Positions 333 through 36,796 of a stretch of DNA of 64,000 bases are shown here, piece after piece. The notes beneath the pieces are model-generated. The model saw nothing but the letters and a program-made list of their open reading frames with translations. It ran no database searches and was not told the origin of the DNA. This DNA is from Pseudomonas poae (lineage in GTDB: Bacteria; Pseudomonadota; Gammaproteobacteria; Pseudomonadales; Pseudomonadaceae), in contig NZ_JYLI01000012.1 in the NCBI RefSeq assembly GCF_001439785.1, forward strand, positions 124,001-188,000. Reading direction: 5' to 3'. The translations under genes and the position numbers were made by a program. The stretch's first letter is position 1, and every line of letters begins with the position of its first letter.

Positions 333-360
333 TTGACTTGCAAATGATAATGATTATTAT
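333..360 (+). promoter_or_regulatory. Fur box over the prrF promoter
   Basis: Bases 342-360 read aaatgataatgattattat, a close match to the Fur operator (repeats of GATAAT/ATTATC). A -35 element TTGACT lies at 333-338 and TATTAT at 355-360 can serve as -10 with a 16-bp spacer, so bound Fur-Fe would cover the promoter. Transcription would begin near 367, at the 5' end of the small RNA, giving iron repression of it. Confidence 0.85.
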
Positions 361-367
361 TGGGCCT

Positions 368-481
368 AGCTGATCGCGAGATCAGTCGATAGGCCAAGAG
401 ACCTTAGGTCGGACTCTTGGAATATCTCCTCATCAGGCTAATCACGGTTTTTGACCCGGCTCTTTGGCCGGGTCTTTTTTT
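368..481 (+). ncRNA. prrF: PrrF iron-responsive small RNA
   Basis: The sequence from about 368 contains the hallmarks of PrrF RNAs of Pseudomonas: the CGCGAGATCAG segment, two GGCCAAGAG/CTCTTGG arms, the single-stranded 'TCTCCTCATCAGGCTAATCACGG' core used for target pairing, and a strong terminator (stem GACCCGGC 453-460 with GCCGGGTC 467-474, then eight T). PrrF RNAs are made in iron starvation and with Hfq repress mRNAs of non-essential iron proteins such as sdh, sodB and acnA (known biology). The Fur box just upstream supports the call. Only one copy is in this window; the species group usually has two at separate loci. The exact 5' end is inferred from the promoter. Confidence 0.92.
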
Positions 482-750
482 GCCAGTTTCCCTGGCATGG
501 CTTCAGGCTAATGAAGACTGTGTATTGCTTGATGGCGCGCATGGTAGCAAAAGACCATTGCCCAATGAAAGCCGCCCAACCGCTCTGGACGGGATCTTTG
601 AGAAACAGCACCTGAGAATCACTCTCACCGTTTTCTAGCCATCGTCGGGTCAACGAAGACACCTCCCTCCCCTGCAACAATTTTGCATCAAGATTTTGCC
701 CGACCTCTGTGTAATATAGCCGCCACAACTCATATTCAGGCAACCAGACT

Positions 751-27392: not shown

Positions 27393-29267
27393 TCAGTACT
27401 TCTTGATGTCCGCCTGGGTTTCCAACTGCTTGCGGTACGCCGCGAAGTCCTGCTGGCCGATACGGGAAGCAAGGAAGCGACGGTATTGCGCCTTTTCTTC
27501 ATCCGTTGGGGCAGCAGCTTCGTTGACACCGTTCAAGCGCACCAGCACCAGGCTGCCGTCAGCCAGAGTCACGGTGGTGAAGGTAGGCTTGTCCTTGGCC
27601 GCAGGCTTGGGCATGCGGAACAGGGCCTGCAGCACGGCCGGATCGATCCCTTCCTGGCTACGGGTAGCCGCTTCGGTGACTTTCCAGGCCTGACCATCAA
27701 TAGGCTGGTTCAGCGCGGTCTTGCCATCACGCAGGCTGGCGATCAATTCGTCAGCGTGAGTTTTGGCAGCGGCGATTGCGCGCTCCTTGGTCATCTGTGC
27801 ACGAATCGCGTCCGCCACTTTTTCCAGCGGCAGTTGCGCAGGCTTCAGGTGTTCCTTGGCACGCAGCACGATGATGGTTTCAGGGTCCAGCTCGATGGCG
27901 CTGCTGTTGGCGCCTTCATCCAGCACTTCCGGGCTGAACGCAGCGGTCACGACGGCACGGTTGGCCGCAACACCTTCGCCACCCTCACGGCCAAACGGCG
28001 CGGAGGTGTGCACGGCAAGCTTCAGGTCCGACGCTGGCTGGGCCAGATCGGAGGCTTCGAAAGCCGCATCTTCCAGTTGCTTGGTGGCTTCGACATAACG
28101 CTGCTCAACCTGCTGGGTCTTCAGCTCGCGGGTCAGCTTGTCTTTCAGGCTGGCAAACGTCGGTACTTGCGGTGCCTCAACGCCGAGCAGCTTGATCAGG
28201 TGCCATCCGAACGCACTGCGCACCGGCGCCGAAACCTGGTCCTTGTTCAAGGCGTACAAGGCGGTTTCGAAGTCCGGATCATAGACGCCAGGGCCAGCAA
28301 AGCCCAGATCGCCGCCGTTGTTGGCCGAACCCGGATCCTGGGAGAACTCCTTGGCCAGGGCCTCGAACTTCTCACCCTTGGCCAAACGTGCCTGAATCTC
28401 TTCGATCTTGGCCTTGGCCTGCGCCTCGGTGACCTTGTCGTTGACTTCAATCAGGATATGCGCGGCACGACGCTGTTCGGAGAGGTTGGCGATTTCTTTC
28501 TGATAGGCCGCCTGCAACTCATCATCCTTGACCGTGACCTGGTCGAAGAAGGACGACTTTTTCAGTTCCAGATAGTCGATGACCACCTGATCTGGCGTCA
28601 TGAACTCCTTGGCGTGCTGGTCGTAGTAGGCTTTGACCTCGTCGTCGGTGAGCTTCACCGCCGCAGGGTCTGCCTTGATGCCGACGGTGGCGAAATCGCG
28701 GGTCTGTTTTTCCAGACGGGCGAATGCAAGCACTTCGGCGTCGGTCACGAAACCACTGCCGGCGATGCCTGCGCGAACCTGGCCGATCAGCATTTCCTGA
28801 GTCAGCATCTGACGGAACTGCAGCCGGGTGTAGCCCAGTTGACGGATTACCTGGTCAAAGCGCTCGGCGCTGAACTTGCCGTCCACCTGGAATTCAGGGG
28901 TCTGCAGGATCACCTGGTCCAGAGCCGCTTCAGAGAAGCCGAACTTGGAATCCGCCGCGCCTTGCAGCAGCAGCTTGCGATCGATCAGGCCCTTGAGCGC
29001 CGCTTCGCGCAGCAGTTTCTCGTCGAGCATGGAAGCATCGAAATCCTTGCCCAGCTGTTGCATCAGCTGGCGCCGTTGCATGTCGACAGCCTGACTCAGT
29101 TCGGTCTGGGTGATTTCGTCACCGTTGACCTTGGCCACGTCCTGTTTGTTGTTGGTCGAAGCCTGAAAAATGGCCTCGATACCGGTGAACGCCATCAATG
29201 CGACGATGATCCCGATAATGGTCTTGGCAATCCAGCCTTGTGAATTGTCCCTGATATTTTGCAGCAT
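27393..29267 (-). CDS. ppiD: Periplasmic folding chaperone PpiD (SurA-N/parvulin)
   Basis: 624 residues. A single N-terminal membrane helix (about 14-33, TIIGIIVALMAFTGIEAIF) anchors it to the inner membrane; a SurA-N-like chaperone region follows (to about 230) and a parvulin domain sits at about 260-370 ('RRAAHILIEVNDKVTEAQAKAKIEEIQARLAKGEKFEALAKEFSQDPGSANNGGDLGFAGPG'). PpiD helps proteins leaving the Sec translocon to fold, and often lacks strong isomerase activity. Located next to hupB as in other pseudomonads and enterics. Confidence 0.95.
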   Translation of the reverse strand: MLQNIRDNSQGWIAKTIIGIIVALMAFTGIEAIFQASTNNKQDVAKVNGDEITQTELSQAVDMQRRQLMQQLGKDFDASMLDEKLLREAALKGLIDRKLLLQGAADSKFGFSEAALDQVILQTPEFQVDGKFSAERFDQVIRQLGYTRLQFRQMLTQEMLIGQVRAGIAGSGFVTDAEVLAFARLEKQTRDFATVGIKADPAAVKLTDDEVKAYYDQHAKEFMTPDQVVIDYLELKKSSFFDQVTVKDDELQAAYQKEIANLSEQRRAAHILIEVNDKVTEAQAKAKIEEIQARLAKGEKFEALAKEFSQDPGSANNGGDLGFAGPGVYDPDFETALYALNKDQVSAPVRSAFGWHLIKLLGVEAPQVPTFASLKDKLTRELKTQQVEQRYVEATKQLEDAAFEASDLAQPASDLKLAVHTSAPFGREGGEGVAANRAVVTAAFSPEVLDEGANSSAIELDPETIIVLRAKEHLKPAQLPLEKVADAIRAQMTKERAIAAAKTHADELIASLRDGKTALNQPIDGQAWKVTEAATRSQEGIDPAVLQALFRMPKPAAKDKPTFTTVTLADGSLVLVRLNGVNEAAAPTDEEKAQYRRFLASRIGQQDFAAYRKQLETQADIKKY

Positions 29268-29331: not shown

Positions 29332-29361
29332 AGAAGAAAGGCGCATCCGAGGATGCGCCTT
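29332..29361 (-). terminator. Terminator after the tRNA-like element
   Basis: AAGGCGCATCC-GA-GGATGCGCCTT (29338-29361), an 11-bp perfect stem; on the minus strand it is followed by UUCUUCUA. It ends transcription coming from the tRNA-like element or hupB before ppiD. Confidence 0.85.
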
Positions 29362-29369
29362 CTCGTAAC

Positions 29370-29444
29370 TGGCGGAGCGGACGGGGGTTTGAACCCACAC
29401 CCCCGGCGTGCGACCCAATGGATACGTGGGTCAGCTGCCGCTCC
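29370..29444 (-). ncRNA. tRNA-like structured RNA (tRNA pseudogene or novel RNA)
   Basis: On the minus strand this 75-nt segment begins GGAGCGG and ends CCGCTCC-G-CCA, a perfect 7-bp acceptor stem with discriminator base and encoded CCA. It contains GGGTTCAAACCC like a T loop and a 6-bp hairpin GACCCA/TGGGTC with a nine-base loop in the anticodon-arm region. But no D arm is seen, the T arm does not pair in standard register (a CGGGGG/CCCCCG stem with 12-nt loop fits better), and no amino-acid identity can be read. A hairpin CCAGAC-GCAA-GTCTGG (29454-29469) precedes it and a strong terminator follows. It may be a decayed tRNA or a stable RNA or mRNA 3' structure after hupB. Confidence 0.5.
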
Positions 29445-29496
29445 GCTGCCAGACCAGACTTGCGTCTGGCCCGGGTAGGCAAGGCGTGAACGAAGC

Positions 29497-29769
29497 TTAG
29501 TTAACGGCTTCTTTCAGAGCTTTACCGGCTTTGAAACCTGGTTTTTTGGCAGCCGCAATTTGCAGTGCTTTGCCAGTCTGTGGGTTACGGCCAGTGCGGG
29601 CTGGGCGATCAGTCACGGAGAATGTACCGAAGCCGACCAGGACCACGGAGTCGCCGGCCTTCAGAGCGCCAGTGACGGATTCGATCACTGCGTCCAGCGC
29701 ACGGCCGGCAGCAGCTTTCGGGATATCAGCGGATGCAGCGATAGCATCAATCAGTTCCGACTTGTTCAC
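29497..29769 (-). CDS. hupB: DNA-binding protein HU-beta
   Basis: 90 residues from GTG 29769 (AGGGGAC upstream); the frame extends further but HU begins '[32 protein letters not shown]'. The DNA-binding arm is '[46 protein letters not shown]'. A nucleoid protein that bends DNA, acting as homo- or heterodimer. Sits between lon and ppiD as in most gammaproteobacteria. Expression relative to lon appears independent since about 150 bp separate them. Confidence 0.96.
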
Positions 29770-36318: not shown

Positions 36319-36395
36319 TGGGGTGGACGAAGGGGATCGAACCCTCGACAACGGGAGTCACAATCCCGTGCTCTACCAACTGAGCTACGCCCACC
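36319..36395 (-). tRNA. tRNA-His (GTG)
   Basis: Cloverleaf with anticodon stem GGGAT/TGACTCCC region and anticodon GTG, T loop GGTTCGATCC, encoded CCA (TGG at 36319-36321) and the extra G-1 (base 36395) that is special to tRNA-His. Identical or nearly so to the copy at 36612-36688. Confidence 0.97.
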
Positions 36396-36470
36396 ATCTT
36401 GCATCGACGAAGCACTCAAACAACTTCTTCGTCTGGCCTCATCACGCCCTGGGGCCTGATGACGCTTGAT

Positions 36471-36555
36471 TGGTGCGGATGAAGAGACTCGAACTCTTAC
36501 GCCTCGCGGCGCTGGAACCTAAATCCAGTGTGTCTACCAATTCCACCACATCCGC
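36471..36555 (-). tRNA. tRNA-Leu (TAG)
   Basis: 85 nt with a long variable arm (GCGCCGCGAGGCGT), acceptor GCGGATG, anticodon stem CTGGA/TCCAG with loop TTTAGGT giving anticodon TAG, T loop AGTTCGAGTCT and encoded CCA. Second-last gene of the minus-strand cluster. Confidence 0.97.
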
Positions 36556-36573
36556 GCTTGCAGCTCTTAAAGC

Positions 36574-36604
36574 AAAGGCGCCAGATGATTAATCTGGCGC
36601 CTTT
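36574..36604 (-). terminator. Hairpin after the first tRNA-His
   Basis: AAAGGCGCCAGA (36574-36585) with TCTGGCGCCTTT (36593-36604), the same stem as the final terminator of the cluster but with only a broken U run (UUUGCUUU), so read-through into tRNA-Leu is likely. Confidence 0.65.
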
Positions 36605-36611
36605 CAAAATA

Positions 36612-36688
36612 TGGGGTGGACGAAGGGGATCGAACCCTCGACAACGGGAGTCACAATCCCGTGCTCTACCAACTGAGCTACGCCCACC
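36612..36688 (-). tRNA. tRNA-His (GTG), first copy in transcript
   Basis: Same sequence features as 36319-36395: anticodon GTG, G-1 at 36688, encoded CCA at 36612-36614. Together with its 3' hairpin it forms a unit repeated around tRNA-Leu. Confidence 0.97.
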
Positions 36689-36719
36689 ATATAGCGCTAC
36701 TTGTGCCAAAGCTGCCTAA

Positions 36720-36796
36720 TGGCGCACCCGGCAGGACTCGAACCTGCGACCATCCGCTTAGAAGGCGGATGCTCTATCCAGCTGAGCTACGGGCGC
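36720..36796 (-). tRNA. tRNA-Arg (TCT)
   Basis: 77 nt: acceptor GCGCCCG with CGGGTGC, D arm AGCTCAGCTGGATAGAGC, anticodon stem CCGCC/GGCGG with anticodon TCT, T loop GGTTCGAGTCC and encoded CCA. First gene of the Arg-His-Leu-His cluster. Confidence 0.97.

Follow-up and report, generated by a model that had tools for sequence, protein, structure and literature searches.

Co-transcripts of an mRNA and a tRNA that are processed by RNase P exist, e.g. secG-leuU in E. coli, and ordinary 3' UTR stem-loops are elements in which pairing is conserved rather than sequence. The locus described here, between hupB and ppiD, resembles both: its ancestral layout would have shared with the secG-leuU type a coding gene, a tRNA and a terminator on one strand, and it too conserves pairing rather than sequence. 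It differs from the former in that its tRNA is dead in Pseudomonas poae and cleavage there is putative, and from the latter in that the stem derives from a tRNA acceptor helix and is followed by a separate terminator. A precedent for a pseudo-tRNA used inside a larger RNA is tRNA-Other of Bacillus cereus, which does not act in translation and is presumed to belong to a longer RNA that serves a different purpose (PMC3399842). Unlike the relic studied here, which is known purely from comparison and whose arms besides the acceptor helix are dispensable, tRNA-Other lies beside a genomic island, and its knockout gives phenotypes (PMC3399842). tRNA fragments arising from integration are common in prokaryotes (PMC9897764). 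No paper on a tRNA between hupB and ppiD was found in the literature, and the passages searched in work on tRNA sets, including that of P. fluorescens SBW25, held nothing on such a gene. Reuse of a pseudo-tRNA has precedent in itself; what appears to be new is its recruitment to a 3' UTR, the acceptor helix outlasting a decay that ran in parallel.

The relic lies in a stretch of 64,000 nucleotides from P. poae (hereafter, the window), on the minus strand (Table 1). In the order of this strand, the hupB stop (29497) was followed by a hairpin (H1), two unpaired bases, a 77-nt unit, a short linker, a terminator hairpin and the ppiD start (29267). The body of the relic comprised 75 nt (29444-29370), the 77-nt unit being the body together with the rest of its outer stem. 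The acceptor strands GGAGCGG (29444-29438) and CCGCTCC (29380-29374) formed a perfect helix of 7 bp, lengthened to 9 bp by the pairing of G29446 and C29445 with C29372 and G29373. An earlier note had reported, from the letters of the window, a perfect 7-bp acceptor stem, a GCCA end and GGTTCAAA, all of which were present in the relic on the minus strand; folding also recovered the GCAA-tetraloop hairpin and the strong terminator that it had placed just 5' and just 3'. The 146-nt segment folded with -83.5 kcal/mol (z = -6.5), none of 200 shuffles being equally stable, and a hairpin at the position of H1 was predicted in nearly all the relatives folded.

Table 1. Features of the hupB-ppiD region of the window (minus strand throughout).
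Feature	Position	Strand	Basis or comment
hupB (HU-beta, 90 aa)	29497..29769	-	ORF translation; upstream gene, its 3' UTR carries the relic
Hairpin H1, 11 bp, GCAA tetraloop	29449..29474	-	fold; between hupB stop and relic
Decayed tRNA-Asp unit, three-way junction closed by the outer stem	29370..29446	-	BLAST identity and intact orthologues on the site
Outer stem, 5' strand, GCGGAGCGG (acceptor stem and two leader bases)	29438..29446	-	constraint, covariation
Inner hairpin P2, GACCCA...TGGGTC	29410..29432	-	fold; takes the place of the D and anticodon arms in the clade of the window
Inner hairpin P3, CGGGGG...CCCCCG	29382..29405	-	fold; in place of T arm, register shifted
Outer stem, 3' strand, CCGCTCCGC (acceptor stem, G73, C74)	29372..29380	-	constraint, covariation
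GCCA: G73 (29373) and encoded CCA (29372-29370)	29370..29373	-	window sequence
Putative terminator hairpin with U-rich tail	29337..29362	-	fold, near-total conservation, homologues in other families
ppiD	27393..29267	-	gene downstream of the relic

A simple consensus terminator scan of the minus strand did not list the terminator 3' of the relic, probably because an extension of its stem takes up part of the T run. Despite this, the hairpin was called as the putative terminator common to the relic and hupB, because it changed at only 0.6 steps per site and homologous hairpins with T runs were present in other families. The motif (G)GCGCATC...GATGCGC(C) was conserved at hupB-ppiD across much of the order (L115-L138), even at loci without a tRNA.

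The relic is not a translating tRNA. Neither ARAGORN nor Rfam at its gathering threshold found a tRNA in it, and the Rfam tRNA model (RF00005) scored 13.5 bits, below its cut-off of 29; the failure of the D arm and of the T-arm register described in the earlier note was borne out in this way. The D arm, the anticodon arm and a canonical T arm were missing, the interior folding as two other hairpins, and the features of a functional tRNA that remained were the acceptor stem GGAGCGG/CCGCTCC, G73 and CCA. A known RNA was sought at the site of the relic with Rfam and ARAGORN and none was found; weak Rfam matches to ROSE and to the enterovirus cloverleaf were at chance level and were rejected.

The 3' half of the relic was 83-87% identical to tRNA-Asp genes (BLAST), and its origin was traced by comparing hupB-ppiD gaps at 219 loci (208 distinct). 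An intact tRNA-Asp(GTC), followed by a terminator of the same kind, occupied this gap in four further families of the order (L117, L118, L121, L123, L132, L137 and L139, the last read by eye and then matched by ARAGORN). Within Pseudomonas, 10 of the 150 species sampled had an intact tRNA-Asp at this site, and further intact copies were found in a clade including P. lini DSM 16768 and several other strains. The intact copies scored 68-70.5 bits with Rfam and shared with the relic their position, strand, G73, CCA and following terminator; the relic, at 13.5 against up to 70.5 bits, differed in having no D arm, anticodon or canonical T arm. The intact Pseudomonas copies also had the same acceptor stem, GGAGCGG/CCGCTCC, as the relic, whereas the genome of the window has four working tRNA-Asp genes at other sites (paralogues), with GCAGCGG/CCGCTGC. 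Because its acceptor stem matches the intact copies at the hupB site and not the paralogues, the relic is, on comparative grounds, a decayed orthologue of the hupB-site tRNA-Asp(GTC) and no stray fragment. That the intact copies arose through gene conversion by the paralogues was considered, and was disfavoured by their differing acceptor stem. In four loci of other families (L117, L118, L121 and L139), a hairpin of unrelated sequence was seen by eye 5' of the intact tRNA-Asp, as if guarding the end of the hupB mRNA after excision of the tRNA.

Decay took different forms in different clades: the D and anticodon regions and the indels differed, several lineages had lost most of the body, and of 140 decayed copies only 13 still had GTC in the anticodon columns. 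Intact, half-decayed and scarcely recognisable copies all coexisted. Mapped on a tree of ppiD and hupB, the intact and decayed states required at least 8 changes with reversals, or 29 if decay is irreversible; the exact number of independent losses is uncertain, since a nested intact clade may stem from exchange of the region between strains, yet there were more than a few. Seven intact copies nested among decayed relatives (L078, L079, L084, L088, L092, L097 and L249) shared the 5' flank GGTCATTCCTGACTTGG, and in these it is possible that the tRNA was restored via recombination between strains. Shrinkage to a hairpin occurred independently in separate lineages (e.g. L025, L024, L256, L301 and L320), L025 being reduced to GGAGCGG-AATCCCAT-CCGCTCC-ACCA, i.e. 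the acceptor stem plus ACCA. The hairpin-only lineages mostly folded well (z = -6.5, -6.9 and -5.2 for L024, L256 and L025 respectively), while a few (L297, L029) did not. Within one genus, this single locus shows a gradation between a working tRNA and a plain hairpin of 25 nt, half-decayed cloverleaves included, and selection is visibly at work on the acceptor helix. With such a series, the way in which a tRNA gene turns into a structural part of an mRNA can be put to the test.

Some copies of this region can be misannotated. ARAGORN named some half-decayed tRNA-Asp copies as tRNA-Asn GTT (L250, L262), tRNA-Ala GGC (L100) or tRNA-Tyr GTA (L270, L278), and among half-decayed copies Rfam gave 29.3 bits for L250, 33.7 for L093 and nothing for the others. 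These names are likely misannotations, though conceivably anticodon switches. Two loci (L274 and L296) carried an extra insert between the relic stem and the linker 5' of the terminator, that of L274 with TTTTGCCA repeats.

Substitution was compared among 140 decayed copies of alignable length (parsimony steps per site on one fast tree). The values were 0.6 for the terminator, 1.5 for the linker, 3.2 for the outer stem, 9.2 for H1 and 15.0 for the interior, with 18.3 for third positions of ppiD and 8.8 for those of hupB; ppiD is the better neutral yardstick, because the silent sites of hupB are slow themselves. The outer stem was about five times slower than the interior (p = 8e-10), a comparison in which the uncertain alignment of the interior may inflate its changes; in the 45 relatives closest to the window, where alignment was easier, the values were 0.2 and 3.5 (p = 1e-6). 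By part of the tRNA, the two acceptor strands gave 3.7 and 2.9, G73 1.0 and CCA 2.7, against 17.5, 13.2 and 16.9 for the D, anticodon and T arms respectively. Evolution after the loss of the tRNA was approximately neutral for the interior and not for the outer stem; to judge from these rates, the decay is not wholly neutral. The earlier note had also offered a tRNA mimic: for translation-like interactions this is disfavoured, the D, anticodon and T arms evolving at a near-neutral rate and the T and D arms being unconstrained.

To examine pairing, 49 distinct outer stems were aligned blind to structure, and the null was obtained by swapping 3' strands among lineages (2000 shuffles). Paired cells amounted to 397 of 441, against 342 +/- 5 (maximum 360) after the swap, and doubly changed pairs to 50 against 16 (maximum 28), in tests from which relatedness was not fully removed. 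Remodelled stems included GCCGAGCGT/GCGCTCGGC, GCGAAGCAC/GTGCTTCGC and GTGAAGCGG/CCGCTTCAC. Read on the hupB strand, G-U cells numbered 59 and A-C cells 12, an excess that points to RNA of the hupB strand as the pairing molecule. Compensatory changes in other Pseudomonas, which the earlier note had suggested looking for, were found in this way; an absent or unpaired segment in relatives, which would have spoken against it, was also looked for, and the outer pairing was instead kept nearly genus-wide, a few loci (among others L328, L029 and L335) pairing poorly or differently. Retention of the outer stem through selection on base pairing is shown statistically by these alignments.

The explanation which we favour, and hold to be fairly probable, is that a co-transcribed tRNA-Asp was turned into a stem with a structural role in the hupB 3' UTR. 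The ancestral unit, hupB - H1 - tRNA-Asp(GTC) - terminator, would be older than the genus Pseudomonas. The presence of several further tRNA-Asp genes would have made this one dispensable in most Pseudomonas lineages, and comparison of the copies shows that its D arm, anticodon and T arm were lost in several different ways. Once the tRNA was no longer needed, its closing helix may still have been useful in protecting or shaping the mRNA tail; now of 9 bp, it has been retained through selection for pairing and would act as a 3' UTR stem. H1, the stem and the terminator could together form a closed, nuclease-resistant 3' tail of the hupB mRNA, in place of the tRNA formerly excised. The job of the stem is most likely structural, as a putative nuclease barrier in this tail. 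We infer the transcription, processing and 3' ends of the hupB-relic RNA from sequence, and the evidence would fit a generic stabilising role and a processing role alike. Of the options left by the earlier note, the decayed tRNA is established by the intact orthologous tRNA-Asp genes on the same site; that of a processed hupB mRNA 3' end is well supported as to membership of the mRNA 3' end (position, terminator and sense G-U bias), while the processing is a proposal.

The strongest rival to the structural stem is a residual processing site, where RNase P would still cut at the acceptor helix and RCCA, the 3' side being trimmed; the dead tRNA would then still generate the hupB mRNA 3' end, to be shielded by H1. 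Within the tRNA, it is exactly the acceptor stem, G73 and CCA that are constrained, L025 has retained precisely the stem plus ACCA, and H1 stands immediately 5' of the would-be cut, as does the by-eye hairpin at the intact tRNA of L117, L118 and L121. RCCA was kept in 141 of 185 decayed copies, including that of the window, but was absent in the other 44, which belong to several lineages and mostly still have the stem. The leader bases, moreover, pair with G73 and C74, from which the usual contact of RNase P should suffer, and the downstream linker was equally conserved (1.5 steps per site), making the conservation of CCA non-specific. On balance, the residual site is possible but doubtful. 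Its extended form, a "ghost tRNA" in which the acceptor minihelix and RCCA would serve as an RNase P-dependent site of 3' processing or control of the hupB mRNA, in parallel across many Pseudomonas lineages, we regard as unlikely; if true, HU production would be coupled to the machinery of tRNA maturation.

Release from the hupB 3' UTR of a small RNA acting in trans, or of an RNA bound by a protein such as a chaperone of the ProQ/FinO type, would agree with a strongly folded element ending in a terminator. It is nonetheless improbable: the relic held no conserved unpaired sequence as a seed, the sequence and length of its interior varied freely, and a promoter-like site sought between hupB and the relic was not found. 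Since it is mainly the pairing that is kept, with sequence, loop and length left free, the structural role is preferred to that of a small RNA acting by base pairing. Still under way, neutral decay could have left the acceptor stem merely for lack of time, and the coexistence of all stages from intact to scarcely recognisable accords with it; against an interior near the silent-site rate, however, stem sites changed about five times less and compensatory changes were in excess, which makes this reading very improbable. A tRNA fragment left as an attachment site by integration of a mobile element, common as such fragments are in prokaryotes, has a negligible probability and is ruled out by synteny: intact orthologues lie between the same genes at the same position without an element, the 5' and 3' acceptor strands are both there, and the T arm, the usual part of att cores, is not conserved.

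Elsewhere in the window, the PrrF small RNA (333-482, plus strand) and a tRNA cluster Arg-His-Leu-His (36319-36796, minus strand) were ordinary.
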